Origin: Patiria pectinifera
Lineage: Eukaryota; Echinodermata; Asteroidea; Valvatida; Asterinidae
DNA length: 64,000 nucleotides
Direction of reading: 5' to 3'
Assembly: GCA_029964075.1 (NCBI GenBank)
Contig: CM057130.1
Coordinates: forward strand, 4,774,001-4,838,000
This document shows positions 3,053 to 31,628 of this stretch, piece after piece. A model generated the notes under the pieces. That model made no database searches, was not told where the DNA came from, and worked only from the letters and a program-made list of their open reading frames with translations. Within the stretch, counting starts at the first letter, position 1, and each line of letters starts with the position of its first letter. The translations under genes were made by a program, and so were the position numbers.

Positions 3053-3254
3053 TGGGTCTGAGTTGGTTGTGCTTGGGTCCGAGTTGGTAGTGGGTCCGAG
3101 TTGGTAGTGGGTCCGAGTTGGTCGTGGGTCCGACTTGGTCGTGGGTCCGAGTTGGTAGTGGGTCCGAGTTGGTAGTGGGTCCGAGTTGGCGTGGGTCCGA
3201 GTTGGCATGGGTCCGACTTGGCATGGGTCCGACTTGGTTTGGGTCCGAGTTGAC
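3053..3254 (-). repeat. Minisatellite arm, inverted, 12 x 16-17 bp
   Basis: Reverse complement of the left arm (core GGGTCCGAGTTGG, tails TAG, TCG, CA or CG), so single strands of the two arms can pair over about 200 nt. Confidence 0.9.
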
Positions 3255-3270
3255 CTGATACCACCTCAGC

Positions 3271-5027
3271 AGCAGGCTCAGGGCCAGGGGATTTCGATCA
3301 GGCGTACGTTCATGACGTCCAGTTGCATAATATCCCTTTACAATTTATCAATTAAAACAAGGTAACAAATAAATTTCAATATATATTATAAAAGAAATAA
3401 ATCTCACTTGTTTCAGTCCCCGTTCACCAAATAGCTCACGAAAACAACGAGGCAAAAATTAGCAGAACAACCAGCACTTGATTTCTGTCATTTGCTGCAG
3501 TGTTCGTGCTGTTGCTATGTATAACACTGGTATTCTGTCCTCCATGCGCGCGTGAGCCGAGCTAAATTGCTGGTTACCAGTGGCGTACCTGAATTCGCAA
3601 AACTTCTGTCCTGTTAAGTTTAGATAGCGCCCCCTAGAAGTACAGCTGTGTGAAAAATGAGTTGTTCACACTCTTGTGTATTTCATCATTTGTGACCCCC
3701 TTTGACAGTCATCATTATTATCATAATATTTTGGCCGCTTTTGCTCTTTATTTTCCCATGTGGTATGTGGAAATCCCATAATATTTTGTGCGTGTGTACA
3801 TTTTTAATGGAGAGGAGGGGGCTGCGATACTAGAAATAAAGTGAAGATGGTGGGATTATAATTATTTAGATTTAAAGTGTAGAGATTAGAAGCTGAAAAT
3901 TATGATCATTTCAAAGTACTAAAACGTTCCTTAGTATTGAAATTATTAATTGGAAAAATTAACTGAAAATTACTATTAACTGTTTTATAGCCTATTCACT
4001 AAGTAACTTCCGGTGTGACTGATGAGCAAGTCGCACTTCCGTCGACCTTTGCCTGAACGCATAAATTAGTTATTTTTAGAAAAATGTAGAACTCTATGGG
4101 GAAATGCCCGCTTTACATTTACATTTTCCGAACGATACCAATGTGGCGTTAGGAAAGAGGATACTACCACAAATCTTAATTAAAATCTTTTTATCAAGTC
4201 CATAATTTTCAACATTAATCTCAATAAGAAGTACGTAGAGCATTTTCCCCCGGCATTTGACATTTTATACGGTGCAATGCGGTACCCTACTGTACCCACT
4301 ACCTCCGTCACATGGATCGGTTCAGAAATTTCTAGAAGTAGAGGTCATGCTAATTTACGTTGTAGGGGGGTTTCTTTAACAAGGCGATAGCTCTTGCCAA
4401 ATTTATTTAATTAGATAATACAAAACTTAGAACAGGTAATTAAATCAATATTCATATTTAATTACAATCATTAATGTGCATCTATGGGGGTTAAAATATG
4501 ATAAAGAATCAAGATTCCTTTAATGTATTCTACTTGCACCCCTCTTTAAAGATTGGTATGACCCATATGATGACCCTCATCGACTTATTTCATCGTGATT
4601 ATGCTGTCTTCGCAACCCGAAACGTGACACAGAAAACATGGAAAACTCCACCGAAAACCACATGGAAACTAACGAAGAGTAAGATTTTAATCATCACGGA
4701 CCTTAATAATATATTTTAATAGTAAAGGGTATTTCATATTTAACCGTTTGAAGTGGAATTTATTGAAATTATTTTTGTTAACATCTGTTCGTGGTTATGT
4801 ATTAAAGAATCCGTATTAAACTGTGACATTGTGCAGGCGAAAGGCCGGTATTCGGCGAAAGCAAGGCCTTAATTTATGCCCGTTTCCTTATTCAGTCATT
4901 TTGGCCATAGGCGCGCCTACAGGCGTATTTATTATGATTATTGAGCCTATCATTTTTATAAAATTTGAAATTTGTATCACTATCAGTTACATATATGCCA
5001 GTTTGGCAGTTTGTGTTAAAAACATGG
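3271..5027. other. Non-coding gap, no gene recognised
   Basis: AT-rich and without a long tandem or inverted repeat. A short ORF at 4498-4719 has no domain and no coding bias. A 5' exon of DNAJC7 or of the divergent left-edge gene could hide here, but I could not single one out. Confidence 0.4.
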
Positions 5028-5594
5028 CAGTGGATATTTTGCCGGAGACGGCAAACCTTCAGTAAACGTTAGTTTGCCGGATATGCACTGAACATGCGCA
5101 GTTACTGTTTTTTTGTACTCCAAACATTTTCCGGTGACAAATTTTAGTCTGGCTCCATGCCAATATTATCGTTGTATTTTTGTATTAACAAGATGGGAAT
5201 CAGACCATTTTATAATTTCGGACTTTATTTCCCTTTAAAAAAAATCCTCCAGAGCCACAAATCTGAAAAAGAAAAAGTAATACTCTGCAATAAAATGTTT
5301 GAGACATATTAAAATATTAAAAGAAGAATATTCTTATTTATTTGGGGATGGGAAAAAAAACCTTAACATTGTGGCGGGGGTCAGGATTCGAACTCAGGAC
5401 ATCCCACTCTCTAGAGCTATTGCTTAACCATTGCACTGACTGTGCTACACAACCTTGGTGGGAATTTAATACATGTTATAATTCAGCCCTATCTTAAAGA
5501 GTACAGCGCCCTCTGTTGATGTGGATTGCCGCCGGCAAACCTTTAGTAAACGTTAGTTTGCCGTCATTACCTCCGGCAAAATATACACTACCTA
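5028..5594 (-). mobile_element. MITE with foldback termini carrying a tRNA-like module (copy B)
   Basis: Inverted copy of the element at 1254-1818. The ends read GTGGATATTTTGCCGGAG and CCTCCGGCAAAATATACAC. Its tRNA-like module lies at about 5372-5452 on the minus strand with an intact B box (GAGTTCGAATCC). Internal sequence including AGAGTACAGCGCCCTCTG is shared with copy A. Confidence 0.75.
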
Positions 5595-5924
5595 AAAACA
5601 TACCTAGGCCGCTAGGGGGCCTATGTTTAAAAATGTGAATGTCAGACAAGTCGACCGTTGAGACAACTCGACTCGGGACAAGTCGACCGTTGAGACAACT
5701 CGACCGTTGAGACAGGTCGACCGTTGAGACAACTCTACTCGGGACAACTCGACCGTTGAGACTGCTCGACTTAATGGAAATGAATACACGTGGAGCTGAA
5801 AAAGTTGCACAAATCTGTGGCAAGACCGATCACGGGTGCGGCGCGGGCATACTCGATGTACAGAGGGCGTCGCGTCGGGCCGTTGCGTCCCGCCCGCCCG
5901 CGAGGACCGGGCTGGGCCCGGCAC

Positions 5925-6100
5925 GCGGGCACGTTGACCGACCGGGGATGAGATAAGTGGGCACACAGGGCTGGCAAAAAACGATGTCACCGTGCATGGT
6001 ACGGACAAGTTGACCGGCAAATGGGCGCACAGGCCCGGCAAAAACGATGCCACCGTGCACGGTACGGCCATGTTGACCGGGGATGCACGCACGTGGCCTT
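5925..6100 (+). repeat. GC-rich tandem repeat, about 70-bp unit, 2-3 copies
   Basis: GTTGACCG recurs at the unit borders, followed by GGCRCACAGG, CGGCAAAAACGATG and CACCGTGCA(T/C)GGTACGG. The base composition is quite unlike the flanking AT-rich DNA. Overlapping ORFs here are not convincing. Confidence 0.7.
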
Positions 6101-6101
6101 G

Positions 6102-6140
6102 AAAAAAACGAACGATGTGCAGTGCACATCGTTCGTTTTT
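6102..6140. repeat. Perfect hairpin with a 3-nt loop
   Basis: A stem of about 19 bp: AAAAAAACGAACGATGTGC, loop AGT, then its exact complement, which ends in a T run. It lies inside foldback element 2. Confidence 0.8.
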
Positions 6141-6706
6141 TTTTGTGCATGGACAATCACACTGCGCTATATCGGCTCTGTTATATGCAACAAAAAAAAC
6201 TCATGTGTCATCACTCCTAAACGGCGATCAGCCGCCGTCAAAATCCCCGGTACTATCCCCGAAACTAGGCCCAAAACATGCGAGGCGACTTGTCTCAACG
6301 GTCGACTTGTCTTTCCATTTATCGCACATACGGTCGAGTTGTCTCAACGGTCGAGTTGTCTCAACGGTCGACTTGTCCCGAGTCGAGTTGTCTCAACGGT
6401 CGACTTGTCTGACCCCCAAAAATGTGACCAACACATTTTGTTGGCAAGCAGTACAAATGAGTAAGATATGCAATGCAGTGATAACCCCGCGCCGTGCGAG
6501 CGAGTATCAAATGGGAAGATGATGAGGTTAGAAGATATTAACAAGGGCTTTTCACCAACGGTCCAATTTACATAAATTGCTGCAAGATTCCCAAGATAAC
6601 GTAGGCTTATGTGAGAAAGTAAAAAAGAAAACAATTGTGCAAGGTCGCTCTAACAATGCAAAGACATTAGACCCGTGAACGTGGCGTTGTGTCACAGCTT
6701 TACATA

Positions 6707-6805
6707 TGATCTGACTGCTGGTGACTAGCCTGTGTTAAAAGTAAAGGAGGGGAAGTGGATGGAAATTTTGACTGTCTGTGACTGTTTAAATAGCACCAGG
6801 GTTAT
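6707..6805 (+). repeat. 3' fragment of the R4 dispersed repeat
   Basis: ATGATCTGACTGCTGGTGACTAGCC through TGACTGTCTGTGACTG matches the ends of the copies at 22262-22640 and 48895-49575. It sits 55 bp upstream of the first recognised DNAJC7 exon. The stretch 6428-6706 shows nothing else. Confidence 0.7.
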
Positions 6806-6860
6806 TAAAAAGCTAGTGTACAAGCTTACATATACACGTATTATTGTTCTTTTATATCAG

Positions 6861-6949
6861 TGTTGCCGAGGCAAAGAAGAGTGAAGGAAACAGCTGCTAC
6901 AACAACAGGGACTATGAAGCAGCCATCCAGCTCTATACAGAAGCAATTG
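6861..6949 (+). CDS. DNAJC7: DNAJC7 exon a (first recognised)
   Basis: Acceptor TTTTATATCAG; donor G|GTCAGT. Encodes the first TPR helix pair ([20 protein letters not shown] onward). The first base completes a codon begun in an undetected upstream exon. Retaining the next intron would give a stop at about 6985. Confidence 0.9.
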
Positions 6950-9900
6950 GTCAGTCAACTCTTGCACATGTTACATCCCAGCTATAGCAATGGCCCCAAC
7001 TGTAATTGGGACAGTGCAAACTATGCTTGGGACAGTGCAAACTATACTTGGGACAGTGCAAACTATACTTGGGACAGTCCAAACTATGCTTGGGACAGTG
7101 CAAACTTTACTTGGGACAGTCCAAACTATACTTGGGACAGTGCAAACTATGCTTGGGACAGTCCAAACTATACTTGGGACAGTGCAAACTATACTTGGGA
7201 CAGTCCAAACTATACTTGGGACAGTGCAAACTATACTTGGGACAGTGCAAACTATACTTGGGACAGTCCGAACTATGCTTGGGACAGTCCAAACTATGCT
7301 TGGGACAGTGCAAACTTTACTTGGGACAGTCCAAACTATACTTGGGACAGTGCAAACTATACTTGGGACAGTCCAAACTATACTTGGGACAGTCCAAACT
7401 ATGCTTGGGACAGTGCAAACTATACTTGGGACAGTCCAAACTATACTTGGGACAGTGCAAACTATGCTTGGGACAGTGCAAACTATACTTGGGACAGTCC
7501 AAACTATACTTGGGACAGTCCAAACTATACTTGGGACAGTCCAAACTATGCTTGGGACAGTCCAAACTATACTTGGGACAGTGCAAACTATACTTGGGAC
7601 AGTCCGAACTATGCTTGGGACAGTCCAAACTATGCTTGGGACAGTGCAAACTATGCTTGGGACAGTGCAAACTATGCTTGGGACAGTCCAAACTATACTT
7701 GGGACAGTTCAAACTACAATTGAGACAGTCCCAACCAGTCCAAACTATAGTTGGGACCGTCCCAACTAGGGTCGTCACTGTAGTTGGGCACAGCAGGCAT
7801 CTTTACAATTAACCTATTTGCATTTAACCTATCCAAAACCACACCAACTCACAATGGATATTCCTTGTCACAAAGTGCAACTGTAACAGTACTCTCGTTG
7901 CTGACTTCGCCTTGCAAACCGCCAAATCTTTATCTTTCATTAGAAATGTGTCCGGACTGTGCCAATTATTACAACAACAGAGCAGCAGCGTTCATCATGC
8001 TGGATAAATACCAACAGGGGCTGGAGGACGTCCAACGAGCGCTGAGAATAGACAACACTCTGATCAAGGTATGCCAAGAGAAAAGGAAAAGTCTACTTCG
8101 ATTAACCCTAACCTTCCTAGATCCTTGAAAATCCAAGGAGGTCTGTTGGATGCATTTGCTGCATTGGGGAATGCAGATTTAGAACCCGTTGGCCAGTTTC
8201 ATGGCGCTGTTTAACAGTTAGCAGAGAAGTTGTGCCAACTATGGTAGAAAAGTGTGCTAACATTAAACACTATTTCACAGCGTGGATGTGCATACAGTTG
8301 CGTGCATGGAGATTTCTAGTGTTACATCACTAACTTAACCCTAACCTTCCTATATCCTCCACCTCCAAAATGCTCATTGTAAAATATAGGATTTTGTAGG
8401 AATAAGGCTTTATGGCAAAAATGTGTGATTTTGGAGGATGCACTGTGTCAAGGTCTTAGGCCGGACCTTGTGTTGTTTATGCTCAGCCGTGCATTAATTT
8501 AGGCATAGATTATACTTGAAAGCCTCCACACTGTTCCAGGATGCCACTGGCTCTGCCTCAACATATTCACAGTGATTGCTAGAGGATTTTGCAGGATTGA
8601 GGCAGTGGTCACCCCTCCAAGGACCGCATTCAAGAAATAACGGATGGTTTTGCAGGATTGAGGCTGTATGCAATTTGTACATAGAGGCAGTTGGAGAAGT
8701 TTGCAGGATTGAGGTTGCATCCCAGCAAAAATGCCTAGGGAGTTGGAGTTAATATTGTAATTATAGTTTCTGCTTGTTGTCTGCATTGAAATAAACTTTG
8801 AACAGTAAATTTCAAAGATCTTTAACAAACATTCTTTGGGTTTTTTGGGGTTCATTCCAGGGTTATTTACGAGAAGCCAAGTGCCACCTAGCGTTAGGTT
8901 TTGCAGACGCAGCGATCCGATCACTAAACCAAGTGGCCGACTTCGAACCGGGAAATAAACAAGCTCAGTCAGAGGTATGGTTTATAGTCGTTTTTTGTTT
9001 TCAATTTTCCAAAGTCTACTTTTTCTACAATACTCAGATGTATCATAGGTTTACTTCTTATTGATCATGTATTTTTCTGTCAGATGAGGGCTGCCAAGAT
9101 GGTACAGCATCATGACCAAGACGGCCACAAGGCGTTTGACGCAGGAGACTTTCGAAAGGTATTTCACAAAGGTGTTTTTTGTTTAAATCTTGATTGATCA
9201 TGACCTGTTTGGATTTTCCGTAGCTGTGAATGTGAAATTTTGGCAGTAAATCCATATTACCCATTTGTCGGGGTGACACGAACACAACAGACTACCCGAA
9301 GTCACATGATCTTCTTCATGGTCAGTAGAGTGCAGTTTGGGTTGTTGCAGGCACTGTTTTCAATCAACCCAAACCATAAAACTATATTAAATTACTAGAG
9401 CGCTAACTCCTCATTTTCCCGAAGATACTTTGAAGCCATCCTGAGCGCAGGCATTTTGAATTCATATGCGTGTTTGTAGAACATGATGAAATCAGATGGA
9501 ATGCATTTCGAATGATGTACTCTAAAAACAAAAATGACTAAGGAAAACCTTTGTAACAGTTTATTTGAATAACTTTCAAAAGACTTGAAACTGATGAGTT
9601 TTGAATGAATTGGAAGGACTTGTTGTGACTTGTGAAGACTAGTGATCACTTTTGATGATTGTGATCACTTGTGATAATTAGTGATAACCTTTGATAACTT
9701 GTTACATCTTTAAGGACTTGTGAGGACTTGTAATGACTTGTTAGGACTTACAAGTACAGGGTTCGGCTTTAGCGGAAGCCCTCTAGCCAAATGCTAGTCA
9801 AAACAGCGGCGGGCTAGTCAGACTATTCCTTAAGTAGCCCGGCTGGCGAGTCAAACATTATTGGGATACGGTGAAAGGACAGAAAGAAATAGTCATTAAA

Positions 9901-12900
9901 TTCAGAAAGCAAACCTGTCTCAATTTGTGTCTATTTTTATTAGCTGTTAATGGTTAAATTATTCGATTTGTTTATTAGAAACACTGACAAGATTGCCTCG
10001 AGATACGTGTGCACATTTTACATGTATGCACAATGTTGTTTATGAGACTTTAAGGACTTGTGAGGACTTGAAATGACTCTTTAGGACTTACAAGTACTGA
10101 TTAAGACTTGCAAGGACTTGTGATAACTTGAGGACTCGTGATTCTTTTGAGGACTCATGATGTCTTTTGAGGACTTGTGATGACTTTCAGGACTTGTCAT
10201 AACTTGTGGGGACTTTTTAGGATTTGTGAGGACTTCTAGGATGCTGTGAGGACTTATAAGGACTTTTTTGGACTTGTCATAACTTGTGAGGACTTTTTAG
10301 GCTTTGTGAGGACTTCTAGGATGTTGTGATAGCTTGTGAGGACTTATAAGGACTTTTTTGGACTTGTCATAACTTGTGAAGGGTTTTTAGGATTTGTGAG
10401 GATTTTTAGGATTTTGTGAGGACTTGTGAGGACTTTCAGGACTTGTCATAACTTGTGGGGACTTTTTAGGCTTTGTGAGGACTTCTAGGATGTTGTGAGG
10501 ACTTATACGGACTTTTTTGGACTTGTCATAACTTAAGAGGACTTTTTAGGATTTGCGAAGATTTGTAGGATTTTGTGAGGACTTGATTACAATTCTTTGA
10601 AACTTTGTCACAGGTGGTGTACAATATGGACCGAGCCATTGACCACTCGCCGGCATGTACCAAATTCAAAGTCAAGAGAGCCGAGGCCTTGGCCAAGATG
10701 AAACGGTTTACAGAGGCATCACAAGCCGTCAAGTAAGTGCGAATGACAAAAAAATGTCAGCTTCCCAGCAGAAAGGGATAATCGAACTGTCAAACCTTGG
10801 TCACACCTTTAAAGGAATCACATTTGGTTCTACTCTTGTTATACTCATCAGTTATCGTAGCACCTTGACCCACATAAAAAAAACAATGTATAAATCAAGA
10901 TAAAGCGTTTTACAATTCACTCCATTTGGACAAATTCACTCTAACTTTTATCTTCAACATGTGCTGTGGAAATGTGTAAAAAGAAAGAAAAAATATACAA
11001 AATGATTCGTATATTTGTTCTACAAGTGAACTATGACAATTATACACAACATTTATGTGTGAATCATTTATGATGCTGATCGTTTGAGAGAACCGTTTTG
11101 AGAAAAATCTAATTAACAATGAGTGTTTTTCTTGTAGGTACCATTTTTGTTGCTGTTACATAACACAAAGCTGACACAGTTTTTTAATTTTTAATTGAAA
11201 AAAAAAAAAAGGGTTTTTTTTTTTTTTTGCATTTGGGACCCTGGGACCCCAAAGCCTGTTGAAGCCATTCTGTTTCCCCAACCCTGTCAAAACGTGGATT
11301 TTTTTAAATTCTACCCCCAGTGGTATCTTGATGCGGGAGCCTCGTAACGCAGATGCCATTTACGTGAGAGGGTTATGCCTGTATTACCAAGACAACATGG
11401 ACAAGGCTCTTCAACACTTTCAACAGACCCTCAAGCTTGCCCCCGACCATTCCTCAGCTAGAGTAGCATTTAAGGTAAGCAACGAGACAGATCGGGGCCC
11501 CCAATTTCATGGCTTGGCTTACCACAGGTGGGGGCGGGCTGACGTCATCCAATGAAAAAATCTATGTGTTACCATTCAGCACTCCAGACTCAAGAACCAT
11601 TGAGTTGCAAGAACATAAGTCTGGGAGCTAGATTAGCCAAATAAAAATTTCCCGGATGTCCGTACCCACCTATGAGACAGAAAAACTCCTCAAACTCTAG
11701 TAGGATATTCCATGTGAACTATTAGCGTGTTTCATGGATTAGCTAGGAATCTTCACTTGCGCGCATCCATACATGTCACAACGAAGGATTCTGTGCTTAT
11801 ATGCTTAGCGCAGGGTTTCTGCGATAGCACTGTTAGCAGAATGGTGGTAGGGTTTGGACTGTATTTCAGTAGTACCGTATAGTCACAACAAATTTTGGAT
11901 ACCGAACAATACCGAATGATGATGTCAAAATTACCAAAATAGGGACGACTTCGGTGTGAAATTTCATTACCAGGATTTAATTTCCCTCTTGGCCAGATGT
12001 GTTCAGAAGAAGTGACAGAAACAACTTGGCCAGATCTGCACTATACCGACAATTGTTTAAATTCGTTGTGGTCTAGATAAGGCGAAATGTGCTAGTTGGT
12101 AATCCAGCAAGGCCTTTGAAGTTCTGCCCATGCTGCCTGTTTGCATTTTCCCTAACACCATGTGTCCTATTGTATTATGATGACATAATCGTCCGCCCAG
12201 AAAAGTACCTGATACTGCAGTATACCGCCAAATCTTTGTGACGATATGCCACAGACTCTCAAAATCAAATACCACCTAAATGGTGGTCATAAGCTCAGAA
12301 TTCAATGGTTAGCAAAGCCATGAAACTGAGCACAGATGTTACGCTAAAGACAGATAGTCTGTATAGCCTAGCCACACTGACTCCTCATGGGACATGAGTT
12401 AATAAGCCCCTTGGTTACCATACAGTGGGAAAATTTGGACGATTCAGGATCCTTGTGGGAAAAATATTGAAATCACCGCACAGAATTTGCCATGGTGTGA
12501 TTTATGGTATTGCAAAGCATGTTGAATTTAAATGGATTAGGTTTGTTCTCACTAAAACTTGTATGTGGTAAAACCACCTTTAAAATAGATCTTCAAGAAC
12601 AGTGCTCTTTCCCCCCCCCAAAAAAAGAACATTAAGTTACTCAAGCAGACAGTCACTTTCATTATTGTGTTGTTATTCACAAGTTCACGGCAATTTCTTT
12701 TTCCGTGGCTTTGGTTGAATATTTGCCTCTCGTATCTTTCTCGCAGAAATGTAAATTATTAAAATCCAAGAAGGAAGAAGGAAACGAAAGGTTCAAAAGT
12801 GGCAGATACAAGGAAGCTTACGACCTGTACACGGAGGCGCTAGAGGTCGATCCACTGAATGTTAACACTAATGCGAAGATCTACTGCAACAGAGCAACCG

Positions 12901-15900
12901 TGTGTTCCAAGGTAAGACCCACAAGGACCGCTTTGAGAGGTCAAGTAGGTGAGGTCAAAAGGTCAAGGGTTAGATTGGTTTAGGGTGCATTCGAGTAGCG
13001 CACCCGGATCGACTCGGGTAGAGGCAGACAGGTTAGCTATGACAGCCAGGCTAATCGGATGCTCAACCGCGGGCATCACAATCCTCACGTGACGTCCGTA
13101 CTCAAGTTGGTGCAGTTGAGGGGCCAAGTTGATGAAGGTGAAAAGTTGTCTTTTTTTAGGAAATGGTGCATTAAGGCTCATTTTTTTTTAAAAGAGACCA
13201 CATTCACACTCTGGGCTTGCTGTATTTTTGTGCCATCCCCTCCCCCTCCCCCTTCTCTCTCCCAAAAAAAGACTGTCAGTCAAGATCTTGTCCCATCATA
13301 TTGAGGGTAAGGGTTTCCAGAATAGTTGGTTTAATTTGGGGTTTCTTTTGGTGCGTGTGTCTTGTGTTGTCTGCAGCTTAAGAAGCCAGACCAAGCCATT
13401 CTTGACTGCAACAAGGCTCTGGAGCTGGACCCTGATTATCTCAAGGCACTAATGAGAAGGGCCAAATGGTGAGTGTGGATTTTCAAAAACATTGGCAAGC
13501 TCAATATCCATTAAGAGAAATTGTCACAAACAAGACAGACGCTAAATCATGAATAAGAAGTGCTTTATTTTGAATAGTTTGTTTGACAAAGTTTGTGAGA
13601 AACGAAAAAAAGTAAGCACAAATTTTCAACTTTGAAAAAGTATGAGAGAAACTAAGAAATAAGATCAAATTTCACTCAGTTAAATAATTGATTTGATTTG
13701 ATTTGATTTTAAATTGATTTGAATTGATTTTGATCAGTTACAAGGAAACGGAGCAATACGAAGAGGCAGTACGAGACTACGAGAAGGTGTGTCAGATGGA
13801 TAGATCTAGAGGTGAGGGTGGGTTGGCGGTTGGAGCGATACTTATGTATTTACATCGTATTAAGAGGAAATCTTTCGTTTTAAGCAATTGTAACTCTGCT
13901 TCCCCAGATAACCCTAATAGTGACCCCAAGTAACTAGAATTGACAAGGGATGTGCATTTGCGGGTAGTACGGGAAACGGGTACCCAACTGGAAAAAAACA
14001 TGGGTACTCTGGTACCCGTTAAAGAACCCAACCCCAAAATTCCAATCTCGGAAGTTGCTGTTCAGATTATTCATAAAGGTTAGCACGATAATACTGCCAC
14101 GTCGGTGCATCGATACAGCAAGATACAAGTGTGTTCAGTGAGCTAATAGCTTTACGGTGTAAACTGCAACTTTTGCGAGCGTTATAAACATGAAATGTGT
14201 TTTGTTTTCCCGTGTAACCTGGTTTTCATTTATAAAACCCCCCCACAAAAATTTAGAAAATAAGGCCGCTCTTCAAGATGCCAAGTTTGAGCTGAAGAAG
14301 AGCAAGAGGAAAGATTACTACAAGATGCTGAACATCAGCAAGAACGCTACCGACGACGAGATTAAGAAGGCGTACAAGAAACATGCGTTGCTACACCATC
14401 CAGGTAAGACAGCTGGTCAAAATCAGAGCTAAACCACTTACAGCTTTAGTTTAATTGATAGAAATTGTTTTATTGGATCTTGATAAATTCTACTAACTCC
14501 CTAGTGTTTTGTTTTTTTTAAATTTGGGATGGGGGAAGGGAATGCTGGGGGTATGAGTATGGACATTGTGCTAAACTGTAGATAGCGCATCGTGACCTAG
14601 TAGTGGGAAATCAGTTTTCAGAGCAATATGTAAAACCCTTTAAAATCCTGCAGGTCAGTTTCAGGTAAAGGATATGAAGTGTTAAAGTAACTGTGTCACA
14701 CAGAGAGTCACTGCACACACAAAACAGCACTGTGGAGAGCAGTGAAGCTTGACCGAATCTGCCTGCTTGCCCTGAGCTTAACCACACAAAAAAAACTGTG
14801 CAGGGATTTGAAGTGTTTTCCATAGTCTGCAGAAGATTACCTCAAAGTAATTTGAAGTGTGGGTGCGAGCTCTATGGGCAACAGAGGTTTTGGAAAACTT
14901 GTCTTGAAGGGTTGTGAAGCGCAGAAGACTAGGAGGGTAAAAGTCTGGGGGCTGCCTGCTGACACAGGAATAAACTGTAGCATTGTTTATTGTAATGAGC
15001 TCCTAGATTTGGCAGTTGATGATGCTGGTGTTCACTGCCCAGTGCAAGAAGGTCCCACAGACTTAAACACCTGTTATGGTTTAATTGATTGATTGATTGA
15101 TTGTTTTGTTTCAACCCAGATCGTCATTCCAGCAAGTCGGAGGAGGTGCAGAAAGCAGAGGAGGTGAAGTTCAAGGAGGTAGGGGAGGCATACAGCGTGC
15201 TGTCGGATTCTAAGAAGAAGATGAGATATGATAGCGGGCAGGATCTAGAAGAAATGGATGGTGGATTTGGAGGTAAGTTGTACTTACTCTTGCTTTGTCG
15301 TTTCCTCGGGGCTCTGTGGCCTCCGTGCAAGAAGGGTAGATGGTACTTGGCTTGAGCATGTTTTGCAGAGAATACTCATGATGAATAATTATCTGTACGT
15401 GCACAAATTTGTAGCATCTTCACTAGGGAACGATGTTGAGTGGTATTAACCCTAACTGCCTTGGCCCCTTTGGCTAGGAGCCATCCTCAATCCTACAAAA
15501 TCCCCCTATTGCCACCATTTACAAATTGGATTCAGCCTCAGTCCTCCAAATACATTCATTATTTCTTGAATGTCTTCAGTGGAGGGGTGACCATTACCTC
15601 AAGCCTTCAAAAATCCTCCAACAATCACTGTTAACCCTAACAATCCCCATCCTGTCAAACTCCAACACCAGTACTGCACTAGTAAACGGATTATGCTTTA
15701 GATGGGGTCAGGCATACCACCAATAATTTTGTGTACAGTTTACCATATGGTGTTGGAATTTGTAGGAGTGAGGAACAGTTCAGTGTTCCCCCTGTGAACA
15801 ATATAACCCATTTGAAACCAATCATCCTCTGTGCGACTATGCACTCCCAGAGTATTCCTCTTAAAGTTAGCTTGGGTTCCTGGGTAGAATGTGTGGTGTC

Positions 15901-16911
15901 ATGTCAGTGAAACCCTGACTACACTCCAGTCCCCCCCCCCTCCTTTGCATCTACATTGTTTGTAGAGTGTGTCAGTTCATTGTGTAACATTTTCACCAAG
16001 CAAGTGAGACTTTCTGTACTCGACATACTTGCTGTACTCGATTGGGGAGAGGGATTTCTTACTTATTTCCAAGTCTGAAGCAACCTCGTAGTTGAGAAAT
16101 CATTCGCACATGGTGTTTCTGCAAACCTTTCATTATTTAGTATCTCCACCATGCAAAGCCTCAAATCTTACTGAAGCAACTCAGTAAATTGTTGTGTCTT
16201 TTGTACTTCCCAGACTTTGACCCAACAGACATCTTCAGCAGTTTGTTCACGGAATGCGATCCAGAGTTCACCTTCTGGGTGTGACAAAGGGTGGCCCGCG
16301 TAATCAAGATGATCCGGTTAACAAAAACTCAGGGAAAAACACAACTGCCCCAAAAATCTTCCATAGAAATCAGGCTGAGATCTTAGCAGCGTGCAAGATA
16401 TCTGCATGAAAACACATGCAGTCTTCATGATTCTGTGTTCTGTAGATTTCAAGCAAGTAGTATTACAAATAGATTTTGTATTCTTGGCATATGTAGCAAT
16501 AGTTTATTAAATAACTGCTGAAGATCTGTTTGGGAAACCTTAAACAGTACTGTTTTTTACTTGTAAATACAAATCTTATGTACACAGTTTGTATATATTT
16601 GTATATTTTTGCAATAGTTTTTGGATATCCAAAGAGTAAAAAAATTTTAAAAATGAAAACTGTTGAATAAAATGCTGAAGTGCATTTTAAATTGTATAAA
16701 TATTATACCAACAAATTAAACCAAAACAAATGTTATTTTGGACTTTTGTTGTTGTTGTTCAGGTTTTGACCCCTCCCAGATCTTCACCAGTTTTTTCGGC
16801 CACCATGGTGGCTTTAACTTCGGAGGGCACGGAGGGGGTGGCGGCGGTCACCGGGACAGCGGTTACTATGGCGGCGGTTTCCCAGGAGGATTCCAGTTCC
16901 AGTATGGCTAA
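6861..16911 (+). CDS. DNAJC7: DNAJC7 (TPR2) co-chaperone, near-complete gene, 11 internal exons plus two alternative last exons
   Basis: DNAJC7 is a cytosolic J-domain co-chaperone that binds Hsp70 and Hsp90 through tetratricopeptide repeats and stimulates Hsp70 ATPase. Exons: 6861-6949, 7944-8068, 8861-8974, 9084-9158, 10614-10732, 11321-11474, 12747-12911, 13377-13468, 13738-13811, 14257-14403, 15120-15272, then 16214-16284 or 16763-16911. All junctions are GT/AG and keep phase. The spliced product is about 459 or 485 codons from the first exon found; from memory the human protein has 494 residues, so only about 30 N-terminal residues are missing. TPR signatures include [41 protein letters not shown] and [14 protein letters not shown]. 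The J domain begins [20 protein letters not shown] and has the HPD motif, whose Asp codon is split by an intron. The order of domains and even the linker [12 protein letters not shown] match vertebrate DNAJC7. No promoter was identified. The neighbour downstream is UBE2E, convergent. Confidence 0.93.
6950..7943 (+). other. DNAJC7 intron with 21-bp minisatellite
   Basis: Filled mostly by the array at 7004-7730. The rest is unique AT-rich sequence. Confidence 0.85.
7004..7730 (+). repeat. 21-bp minisatellite, about 34 copies
   Basis: The unit is GGGACAGT(C/G)CAAACTATACTT, with C/T changes giving GCTT or TACTT. Because 21 is a multiple of three and the unit has no stop in most frames, it yields long periodic ORFs on both strands (heptads such as NYTWDSP). 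It lies inside an intron and none of these frames joins the DNAJC7 reading frame. Confidence 0.95.
7944..8068 (+). CDS. DNAJC7: DNAJC7 exon b
   Basis: Acceptor TTTCATTAG; donor AAG|GTATGC. Encodes [20 protein letters not shown] and LRIDNTLIK, aligned to the family MCPKNASYYGNRAA region (TPR1-TPR2). Confidence 0.92.
8190..8340 (+). repeat. R3 dispersed repeat in an intron
   Basis: AGTTTCATGGCGCTG, AACAGTTAGCAGA and GCGTGGATG are shared in the same order with 46990-47160. Only two copies are seen in the window. Confidence 0.6.
8515..8740 (-). repeat. Dispersed repeat with GCAGGATTGAGG motifs
   Basis: The motif TGCAGGATTGAGG occurs three times, about 60-70 bp apart. An inverted relative lies at 15478-15640 in a later intron (CCTCAATCCTACAAAATCC and CCATTACCTCAAGCC). 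Confidence 0.6.
8861..8974 (+). CDS. DNAJC7: DNAJC7 exon c
   Basis: Acceptor TTCATTCCAG; donor GAG|GTATGG. Exactly 38 codons: [20 protein letters not shown] onward, the counterpart of GHLREGKCHLSLG in vertebrates. Confidence 0.93.
9084..9158 (+). CDS. DNAJC7: DNAJC7 exon d
   Basis: Acceptor TTTCTGTCAG; donor AAG|GTATTT. 25 codons ending [10 protein letters not shown], the linker before TPR4. Confidence 0.9.
9600..10590 (+). repeat. Degenerate minisatellite (AGGACTTGTGA-type) in DNAJC7 intron
   Basis: Units of 10-17 bp around GAGGACTTGTGATGACTT run through two blocks (about 9600-9750 and 10050-10590), separated by unique sequence. Longer composite units such as GACTTGTCATAACTTGTG recur several times in the second block. 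Confidence 0.85.
10614..10732 (+). CDS. DNAJC7: DNAJC7 exon e
   Basis: Acceptor TTTGTCACAG; donor AA|GTAAGT. Encodes [20 protein letters not shown] and [12 protein letters not shown]; equals VVFCMDRALEFAPACHRFK of the family. Confidence 0.93.
11321..11474 (+). CDS. DNAJC7: DNAJC7 exon f
   Basis: Acceptor CTACCCCCAG; donor AAG|GTAAGC. Encodes [20 protein letters not shown] and [12 protein letters not shown], one of the best conserved TPR segments of the protein. Confidence 0.95.
11475..12746 (+). other. DNAJC7 intron, nothing further recognised
   Basis: 1.27 kb of unique-looking sequence with no tandem array, no clear TIR pair and no coding signal. Confidence 0.6.
12747..12911 (+). CDS. DNAJC7: DNAJC7 exon g
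   Basis: Acceptor CTTTCTCGCAG; donor AAG|GTAAGA. 55 codons with [20 protein letters not shown] and [14 protein letters not shown], the second TPR block (TPR2B-like), which in this family contacts chaperone C-termini. Confidence 0.95.
13377..13468 (+). CDS. DNAJC7: DNAJC7 exon h
   Basis: Acceptor TTGTCTGCAG; donor TG|GTGAGT. Encodes [20 protein letters not shown] and [10 protein letters not shown]; a canonical TPR (A at 8, A at 20, P at 32 pattern). Confidence 0.94.
13738..13811 (+). CDS. DNAJC7: DNAJC7 exon i
   Basis: Acceptor TTTTGATCAG; donor G|GTGAGG. Encodes [20 protein letters not shown]; nearly identical to [18 protein letters not shown] of vertebrates. Confidence 0.94.
13955..14145 (+). 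repeat. GGGTACCCG-type dispersed repeat, partial copy
   Basis: GGGTACCCAACTGG, ACATGGGTACTCTGGTACCCG and CCCAACCCCAAAATTCC are shared with 18459-18760 and, inverted, with 46265-46625. Intronic. Confidence 0.65.
14257..14403 (+). CDS. DNAJC7: DNAJC7 exon j (start of J domain)
   Basis: Acceptor AAAAATTTAG; donor G|GTAAGA. Encodes [20 protein letters not shown] and [14 protein letters not shown]: helices I and II of the J domain, with the intron falling after the first base of the HPD aspartate codon. Confidence 0.96.
15120..15272 (+). CDS. DNAJC7: DNAJC7 exon k (end of J domain)
   Basis: Acceptor TTTCAACCCAG; donor G|GTAAGT. Completes HPDRH, then [20 protein letters not shown] and [14 protein letters not shown] (helices III and IV and linker). 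The phase-1 donor serves both alternative last exons. Confidence 0.96.
15478..15645 (+). repeat. Inverted relative of the 8515-8740 repeat
   Basis: CCTCAATCCTACAAAATCC, TTCTTGAATG, GGAGGGGTGACCA and CAATCACTGTTAACCC are the reverse complement counterparts of the copy at 8515-8740. Confidence 0.55.
16214..16284 (+). CDS. DNAJC7: DNAJC7 alternative last exon 1 (short C-terminus)
   Basis: Acceptor TTGTACTTCCCAG. In phase with exon k it adds [20 protein letters not shown] then FWV and a TGA stop. It keeps the family's FDPxxIF motif but lacks the Gly/Phe-rich tail. An AATAAA at 16666-16671, about 380 bp after the stop and before exon 2, would allow its own transcript end. Confidence 0.75.
16666..16671 (+). 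promoter_or_regulatory. Polyadenylation signal AATAAA between the two last exons
   Basis: Canonical hexamer in AT-rich DNA, 382 bp after the first stop and 92 bp before the second terminal exon. It is well placed to end the short isoform. Confidence 0.6.
16763..16911 (+). CDS. DNAJC7: DNAJC7 alternative last exon 2 (Gly-rich C-terminus)
   Basis: Acceptor GTTGTTGTTCAG. In phase with exon k it adds [20 protein letters not shown], a run of glycines, and ends [12 protein letters not shown] before TAA. This matches the vertebrate tail (GDFDPNNIF, then F/G-rich, ending FFFQFG), so it is the ancestral-type end. Confidence 0.93.
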
Positions 16912-18458
16912 GGTATACATTCTTCTACCGAGTATCAAATTTTTGTTTCTTGTTTAATCTCTGCATCGATATTTTGACGGATGTATACTCGCGTTTATAC
17001 ACTCTCAAAAGTCTTAGATATCCATTGTGCATAGGGATTTTTCTTGCAAAGACAGCGTTTTGAACGTGTAGTTGGCGACGCAAGAGTGAAGTTCTGTTCC
17101 CTGAATCAGCCATGCACTATAGAGCAAGTTTTGGCACAAACTATAGTCAACCATAATTCTACGAAGTTGGAAAAAAAAGGATTGTTGGACAACTCTAGTT
17201 GACTTCTCGGAGCATGGGGCACGGCTGCATCACTGGTAACCAATAGCCGCTGGTATCATACAGCACAACGGGGAGCCAGGACCTTCGTTTGACTAGAAGT
17301 GTTTGCGCGTTGCTGTTAGTGCGCAGGCGTAAGTTATATCACAAATCAACCACTAGTTGACTAATGGTCCTTGCCCAAAATTGCTCATCGATTGTCCAGT
17401 GATGGCTGTTGTGACTTGGCAGTGAGGTGTTTGATCAGTGTAGTGCACTGCATATGTACACACAGTGCTACATCTCTTGCAAGGAACAGCAAAATAGCAC
17501 CCTCGCATCCTGTGTTTAAGAGCAGATGGCAAATTCTTGACTCCAGAACCCTTTTTTAGAGTGAGTCCCCGTGAAACTTTTTACTCCTAATTTGTGGGGA
17601 ACCCGATGATCATAGCCATTTTGAGAACCATGCGCACTGATTACAACAATGGACAAATTAGTGAATTTGAGATGACAAGGGAATGCTTTTTGTATACGTG
17701 GAAAATTCTTTGTAGATTTGCAAGGGAGTATTTATAAATAGAAGAATAAATTGTTTGTTAGATCCAAAATGATTTGACGTGTGGCATACATGTAGACTCA
17801 GAGAGTCTAGATGACAACCCACCAACCTGCAAATAAACGTCCAGAATGTTTGATTCAAAGACTTTGAGAAAAGGGTGAAACTCTTTGGAAAATGGTTCGT
17901 CGTAATGGAGAGGAACAGTCAAACATTCAATCAACATTATTTTGATAAGATAAAGTGATAGGTATATTTTCTGTAAAAACTGATTTTTGAATAAGTCTGT
18001 GTCATCTTAAATGTAAATCTCTACTTCTTAAGTATTGGCCCAAATTGACCTTAAGCATTGCGGCCATCTTGGAGGGCATCTTTTGTTAGTTAAATCATTA
18101 AGAATGAACGCACAAAGTTTCACTCATGCATATCTCAGCAAAACAGACGCCTTGCCCCCTAAGATGGCCGCTACGCATGGGATCTATTTGCAGTTTGGTA
18201 ATTTTTTTATTTTTAATTTTTTGTGTGTCTCCCCCTGCCCACTCTCAAAATTACACTCATAACTGGGAATATTTAATTGAAGTGTTTTTTGTAAATACTG
18301 GAATCATGCAATGTGCACTTATGTTAAACCCATAATTATTCTTTGTCTGTTCTGGTACATACATGTATGATTAAACTGTTCTAACATTTTTTTCATTTTC
18401 TGCACACTCGAGTAGTATAAATTCATCCGTTACCAATGCATTGTCACTTTTGTCGCAG
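16912..18458. other. Probable DNAJC7 3' UTR and intergenic sequence
   Basis: No ORF of coding type. An AATAAA at 17745-17750 is a candidate end for the long isoform. No TIR pair was found. Confidence 0.4.
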
Positions 18459-18762
18459 TCACTCTTAGAGTAAAACATGGGTGCCCAGGTATCTATAAAA
18501 GAAACCCAACCCCAAAATTCAAACCCTGGATATTGCCTGAAGGGCCTTACACAGCTTTACGGCGTAAAATGCAAATTTTCATTTTGAAAATTCCCCACAA
18601 ATTACTTCAAAACCTTTCTTTTTCATTGTCTGAGAAGTTGCCAAGTAATTTGTAAAGTTGGTCACGGGTACATGATCCCATAATCTGGAACCGGTTCCTG
18701 ACATCGGCAGTCGGGTACTCGGGTACCCGGTCCTGATGCACAGCCCTAGTCACTCTTATGCA
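18459..18762 (+). mobile_element. GGGTACCCG-type MITE, fullest copy
   Basis: About 290 bp ending GGTCCTGATGCACAGCCCTAG; on the other strand the end reads CTAGGGCTGTGCATCAGG, which looks like a hAT terminus. AGTCACTCTTA occurs at both edges (18459-18469 and about 18749-18760), a probable target-site duplication. Related copies are at 13955-14145 and 46265-46625. Confidence 0.65.
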
Positions 18763-19239
18763 ATACGGGACAGCATGTGTTCTAATCTGAAACTGCTTAC
18801 CTGATGAAAATATTTAAATTGGGCCCACAACTTAAGAGTGCAGTTCTTCAAATATCAAGTGCAAGTTCCAGAGTTTGACATCTGTACCTTGGGCCCAGTG
18901 GAATTGTGCTCCATTCCCTCATGGATATACATTACAAAATACTCACACGGTTATTCACAGAGTTTATATCAATTTTTCGTAATTTATTAGCCTGTACTTA
19001 TTTTTCTGGTTGTTTTTTTCTGTGGCATTACATCATACCAGATCTATAGCCTGCCTGTATTTTTCATATTTGCGGATTACGTTATTGAACATAATGTTTT
19101 TGGCAGCCTTGTTTAATTGAAAGTTTGGAACTGCAGTTAATGGTGTGGATTGGAAGCAGAGTCAGCTGATTTTTATCCCGTAGGTTGAATAAACGCAATC
19201 CCAATAAGTACGTAAAGACAAGATATAACTGGCATTTGC

Positions 19240-19472
19240 TGGAGCCAATTTCATGGCGCTGCTAAGCACAAAAATTTGCTTAGCAGAAGAAAGTCCGGCT
19301 TATAAAAGCAGGTTACCAGCCAAAACTCCATGTGATGTACATGTATATTGCTCTTGATTAGTGTTGAGCTGTTGTTTGCTATAGCATGAAAATCACGTGG
19401 AGTTTTGGCTGGTAAACTGCTTTTATAAGTCAGACTTTTTCTGCTAAGCAATTTTTTTTTAAAATGGGGCCC
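19240..19472. mobile_element. Hairpin MITE (TGCTTAGCA family, R5)
   Basis: Arms of about 66 bp (19271-19336 and 19392-19457) are inverted with a few mismatches; the shared parts include TTGCTTAGCAGAA, TTATAAAAGCAG and TACCAGCCAAAACTCCA. The outer motif CCAATTTCATGGCGCTG matches other R5 members at 22650 and the R3 repeats. Confidence 0.8.
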
Positions 19473-20239
19473 AGCTGTCTGAAGCAACTGTCTTCTCTTG
19501 CCTGTCATAAGAATGCAACAGCACACAGCACTTTCTGTACATGTAGTGGAGACTGTGTGACAGTAACGCTAGAAACTGTTGTAGATGACATGAATGTTGG
19601 CTGTGAACTGAAACGTAGCACTTGGCAGTTCAACCCTAAAAGCTGTGGCAGCTGGCTTTATCTATCAACTTTTCTATGTATTATGTGACGTGGTTGCAGT
19701 TTGTTTTGACTGAAACTGCTCCATGTGTGTATATGGCACAGTTTCAGTCAAGACAGATAATTGGGTACCTGACTACAACCACTGGCAATCCCCAGACTTC
19801 TCCATTTCAATAACATTGCAATTCTTTATCAGGCATGCAACTGGGAAATCACAAAAAAAGAGGAAATTAAAACTTTTCTCAGACTTTTACAGTGTTTTCT
19901 ATTTTCAATGGCACACACACAGTAAAAAAAAAAAAAAGAAAAATCAGGATAAAAGTGAGTGAACCTTTATAAAGATCTTTTCTTTTCTATTCTACCACCC
20001 TCCATAATTTGATAATTTGACCGAGACTTGTAATGCAACTGTTGAATTATATTAATTTTATCTTTTTGTCCACATGTATGAATATTTTAGTGAGACTTTG
20101 TTTCGGGGTTGCCTGTACAGTTTATACAGTGTATCTTTTTAGCTGGTAAGTGGAATGTGTATAACTTAATTGCAGAATAAAGAAATAGACGTGTAAATGA
20201 GTGTGGCGTGCCAATGCTTGATTTATTTGTAAAATGATC

Positions 20240-28578: not shown

Positions 28579-31628
<3,050 letters not shown>

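Follow-up and report, generated by a model that had tools for sequence, protein, structure and literature searches.

The DNAJC7 gene and its surroundings

DNAJC7 is an ALS-linked, tau-binding co-chaperone, and the core of its gene lies on the + strand, at 4638-15272, of the 64-kb stretch of Patiria pectinifera DNA that was analysed and is here called the window. Twelve coding exons, 1348 nt in all and ending in phase 1, were placed by open frame and splice junctions: exons 1-4 at 4638-4678, 6861-6949, 7944-8068 and 8861-8974, exons 5-8 at 9084-9158, 10614-10732, 11321-11474 and 12747-12911, and exons 9-12 at 13377-13468, 13738-13811, 14257-14403 and 15120-15272. The frame is unbroken across all the junctions, with AG at 11 of 11 acceptors and GT at 12 of 12 donors; the start codon is the analyst's choice. 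Exon 12, the last shared exon of the gene, encodes the second half of the J domain, and its phase-1 donor, GAG/GTAAGT at 15272/15273, has a score of 11.1, the top one among the gene's 12 donors when these are scored leave-one-out.

In the spliced protein Pfam recognizes several stretches of TPR families and, at 369-436, DnaJ, so that TPR repeats precede a C-terminal J domain, and HPD is present in the spliced frame. The N-terminus, MENSTENHMETNEDVAEAK, is polar as judged by eye. The top PDB match of the protein is DNAJC3, with no DNAJC7 chain among the best 60 of 199 matches. Nearly all NCBIfam matches fall below the curated cut-offs, both for this protein (best 25 of 33 families) and for L001 (13 of 13), a J protein encoded on contig C3 of the same genome that is class B-like by eye.

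The protein with the tail of exon A, described below, has at least 36 matches in the genome (90 of 116 candidates scored), 12 of which are this gene's own exons, the tail included; the remaining 24 lie elsewhere and are 31-47% identical. A second DNAJC7 locus or a retrocopy was considered and none is found among these matches, and of three further J-domain loci, L017 and L018 look by eye like other J proteins, with no J-domain line recovered from L016. Relatives were also sought outside the animal: genome contigs gave one weak match, to a bacterial MAG, viral contigs gave no match, and plasmids gave 77 records, all below 60% identity and at about 25% among the matches listed.

Several other features share the window. 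Downstream of DNAJC7 and on the opposite strand (31395-31628) is an exon for a ubiquitin-conjugating enzyme (UQ_con, E 2.5e-15), which we take to be UBE2E-like. Upstream of the gene two similar arrays of a 17-bp unit, at 2023-2223 and 3074-3252, are in opposite orientation by eye and about 0.85 kb apart. Another pair of similar 17-bp unit arrays, again in opposite orientation by eye, stands around a GC-rich stretch in the first DNAJC7 intron (5644-5770 and 6286-6410), a fold-back arrangement like that of a mobile element. One further DNAJC7 intron holds a tandem array with 35 copies of a 21-bp unit that is open in several frames (6998-7735), and yet another holds 10-bp and 80-bp tandem arrays of the AGGACTTGTG type (10053-10585). 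An Rfam tRNA match on the minus strand at 81-138 has 30.7 bits against a cut-off of 29; ARAGORN reports no tRNA in the window.

Two in-phase candidate terminal exons

Beyond the J-domain exon there are, on the + strand, two candidate terminal exons, A (coding part 16214-16284) and B (coding part 16763-16911), both of which fit the donor at 15272/15273 in phase and each of which ends in a stop, TGA for A and TAA for B. The initial annotation had proposed such a pair on one phase-1 donor, and its coordinates, phase and translation are all as it claimed, as are the 23-residue tail of exon A with an AATAAA at 16666 and, from the spliced translation, the Gly/Phe-rich tail of exon B. Joined to the core, A gives a protein of 472 amino acids and B one of 498. 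Tail A ends in FWV, which is presumably class II PDZ-like, while tail B has a helix-V-like motif followed by its Gly/Phe-rich part and ends in FQFQYG. The pattern F[DEN]P..[ILVM]F occurs three times in the six-frame translation of the 64 kb, in A, in B and at 29190; an AG stands two bases before the motif, as phase 1 demands, in A and B, and directly before it at 29190.

When the first 39 nt of the B frame are compared, without gaps, with both strands of the window, exon A is the best match apart from the query itself, with 27 of 39 positions identical and 23 of 39 for the next in rank. Local alignment of the DNA, 16162-16248 to 16712-16797, has a score of 47 that none of 500 shuffles reaches (maximum 38), and the local protein score of tail A against tail B, 41, is reached by none of 2000 (maximum 39). 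By these comparisons of sequence A and B are related beyond chance. The firm similarity is that of the acceptor and the first 11 codons, because the part in the pyrimidine tract may reflect splice-site constraint alone and because the start of the alignment falls within a dispersed repeat. It is over this extent that the earlier suggestion of a duplicated last exon is supported. Between the first 11 codons of A and those of B there are seven differences (2, 1 and 4 by codon position), of which by eye one is silent and six change the amino acid, and being mostly of the latter type they are no demonstration of constraint at the protein level. One genome cannot tell the direction of the duplication, and B could have been copied from A, or both from an older pair, with A as the ancestral end; this is quite improbable in our estimation, since the Gly/Phe-rich end of B resembles the one attributed to human DNAJC7 (PMC13254874), and the ancestor therefore likely had an end of the B type.

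The acceptors were compared with a matrix built from 11 introns of DNAJC7, on which the real acceptors range from -16.3 to 9.8 when scored leave-one-out. Acceptor B ranks first of the 261 AGs in 15300-20000, with 9.9, and acceptor A seventh, with 7.3. The 27 GTs that follow A in 16285-16740 have a best score of 2.0, and the gene's 12 donors, scored leave-one-out, lie at 2.3-11.1, with 10 of them at 5.3 or more. A looks terminal because none of those 27 GTs reaches even the weakest gene donor, the margin between 2.0 and 2.3 being thin. Proximity of these two values, together with the stop within A and its position between the J exon and B, is what could be said for A as an internal poison or cassette exon that is spliced onward to B; with 0 of 27 GTs reaching any of the 12 donors, 10 of which stand at 5.3 or more, we regard such onward splicing as very improbable. 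Directly past the stop of exon B, at 16913, there is a fair donor, AAGGTATAC, with a score of 5.4, and so an intron in the 3′ UTR of B is possible.

The intron directly upstream of A contains a dispersed repeat (16074-16190, + strand) that was recognized from own-genome matches, at least 66 of them elsewhere in the genome at 85-97% identity (40 of 1249 candidates scored). Its long matches end between 16169 and 16190, and in 6 of 9 fetched copies there is a second arm, of 65-66 bp and in opposite orientation. On contig C17 the repeat occurs in tandem with a spacing of about 118 bp. Another segment of the same intron, 15444-15612, is 74% identical over 169 bases to the fetched locus L012 and is probably another repeat. 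The idea that exon A is itself part of a repeat was rejected, as the dispersed repeat stops before the exon and the 771 bases of 16190-16960 match only themselves in the 613.5-Mb genome, in a self-match search that passes over simple repeats and words of very high frequency.

A branch-point-like CTTAC (16167-16171) lies inside the repeat, the insertion of which may thus have reshaped the acceptor region of A. The repeat ends about 23-45 nt before the first base of the exon and may have replaced its branch region, one point in favor of A as a relic, a duplicated exon whose use was lost or never gained and whose 23 codons are open by chance. For this also speak that the exon is short, that its acceptor is ordinary and that constraint on its protein product is not visible from one genome. 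Set against this are the joint integrity in A of acceptor, phase, frame, stop, poly(A) words and absence of a good donor, and the retention of the residues of the helix motif, with which a relic seems to us unlikely.

Poly(A) words and the choice of end

What follows exon A on the + strand, its 3′ UTR and the rest up to exon B (16285-16762), has AATAAA at 16666 and ATTAAA at 16506 and 16715; the 941-nt intron preceding A has no poly(A) words. The UTR of A is AT-rich, with 23% GC at 16500-16700, and it includes two TGTANATA words, at 16562 and 16590, which we take to be Pumilio-type. Of 2000 Markov sequences 0.4% have at least as many such words, and of overlapping stretches of the window 1.6%, figures that, like the FWV end of tail A, are to be read with the many motifs examined in mind. 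AATAAA 16666 is followed by a modest GT stretch, and ATTAAA 16715 by a 20-mer of 90% G+T that overlaps the pyrimidine tract of exon B. The GT-rich tract itself (16744-16759, + strand), 24-39 nt after ATTAAA 16715, is the exon B pyrimidine tract and would be placed where a downstream poly(A) element is to be expected. Being common to the acceptor of B and to ATTAAA 16715, it could put cleavage factors and the splicing machinery in competition. For exon B a candidate long 3′ UTR (16912-20181, + strand) has AATAAA at 17745, 17832, 19188 and 20176.

Coupling of the two exons to alternative polyadenylation had also been claimed initially. The sequence anatomy would suit it, in that A has a stop, no donor matching the gene's weakest follows it and AATAAA and ATTAAA words come before B. 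The same anatomy is shared by another proposal that overlaps our main reading, in which A would be an intronic poly(A) attenuator that lowers the level of full-length DNAJC7 and whose tail has no separate role. A is indeed followed by an AT-rich UTR and by poly(A) words, and if ATTAAA 16715 shares its GT tract with the acceptor of B the two outcomes could compete; yet tail A retains the helix motif and spaces its F.F as B does, neither of which is needed by a plain attenuator, and we consider this proposal rather unlikely.

Alternative polyadenylation is widespread and alternative terminal exons are a source of isoforms, as two papers state (PMC8795681 and PMC10767918). The present case is like those in which alternative last exons go with alternative polyadenylation, where the proximal of two exons brings a stop and poly(A) words of its own, ahead of the distal one, and A and B are filed as a putative member of this common kind. 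They differ from alternative last exons in general in being visibly similar at their start. A literature search for duplicated or alternative last exons found no paper, and among the matches listed for DNAJC7 with splicing, isoforms or echinoderms, judged by title and abstract start, none is on a second last exon.

We know of no second, shorter terminal exon in vertebrate DNAJC7, and its presence here would set this gene apart from the vertebrate one. The likeness otherwise is in the TPR repeats, the C-terminal J domain and a G/F-like end with a potential autoinhibitory helix, going by PMC13254874. That vertebrates have the Gly-rich end only, as the initial annotation held, fits this description of human DNAJC7 but has to be set beside a mention, in another paper, of several human DNAJC7 isoforms (PMC9025444).

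The reading that we favor, and think probable, is that a duplication which took in the acceptor and the beginning of the last exon gave DNAJC7 a pair of terminal exons, A and B, that compete for use. If the J-domain exon is joined to A and the transcript is cleaved upstream of B (at the signals 16666 or 16715), the product would be 472 residues long and have a short hydrophobic end; if A is passed over and B is joined instead, it would be the usual protein of 498 residues. Both ends would then be in use.

A helix-V-like motif in the two tails

The motif common to A and B is similar to helix V, by which J proteins of class B are autoinhibited. In DNAJB6, helix V is residues 96-104 with disease mutations at P96, D98 and F100, and once its contact is lost the J domain is released for work on Hsp70, according to PMC10624832. 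The counterparts of these three residues, in an alignment made by eye, are P, D and F in A and P, Q and F in B. A DPxxxFxxxF motif after the J domain is present in both tails, weakly so in A. For DNAJC7 itself, a potential autoinhibitory helix and a G/F-like region after the J domain are described in a 2026 review, where their control is called unclear (PMC13254874).

When the J domain plus tail A was compared with other J proteins by phmmer, tail A aligned with the DIF stretch in E. coli DnaJ and in DNAJA1. The match of L001, one of the 24 elsewhere in the genome, runs into the tail region, and with the tails aligned alone L001 reads DPNATFQSFFGGQDP opposite the helix motif of A and B. The score of tail A against L001 is reached by 15 of 2000 shuffles, that of the first 22 residues of tail B by 2 of 2000 and that of the whole of tail B by 0 of 2000. 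Alignment of the whole J-plus-tail places the helix of B on that of L001, but not that of tail A. Alone against PDB, tail A has no J protein match, its three matches all being NF-kappa-B p105 with E about 1, and tail B has no match.

The exon boundary lies immediately ahead of the putative helix, so that each isoform would have its own version of the helix and a different sequence after it. In A the putative helix would remain and the G/F stretch would be missing. The FDPxxIFxSxF segment may fold into a helix that docks on the J domain and restrains its binding to Hsp70, in the manner of the class B helix V. With no G/F stretch beyond this helix, A may be controlled otherwise than B, or may bind partners differently through its hydrophobic C-terminus. 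DNAJC12 has a 23-residue C-terminal peptide that binds a client with high affinity (PMC11926245), and a binding role for tail A is therefore possible; the peptide is a model for such a role, with no sequence similarity claimed.

Two isoforms of unequal length from one J protein gene have a parallel in DNAJB6a and DNAJB6b, which differ by terminal exons. The DNAJB6 forms are of different localization and disease effect, and duplicated ends go unmentioned in the part available of the paper that describes them (PMC11574355). DNAJB6 is of class B, and those of its disease mutations that fall in the J or G/F region act on both isoforms, whereas in DNAJC7 the split precedes the helix and G/F stretch.

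More speculatively, and with low expectation on our part, the choice of poly(A) site could set how tightly this J protein is kept from Hsp70 in this lineage, by helix plus G/F in one case and by helix plus hydrophobic tail in the other, with the shared GT tract making the two ends mutually exclusive. An isoform pair that keeps the putative helix and differs in all that lies beyond it would be a ready-made test of DNAJC7 autoinhibition, and, if the reading is true, this would be an animal that tunes a chaperone by its choice of terminal exon.
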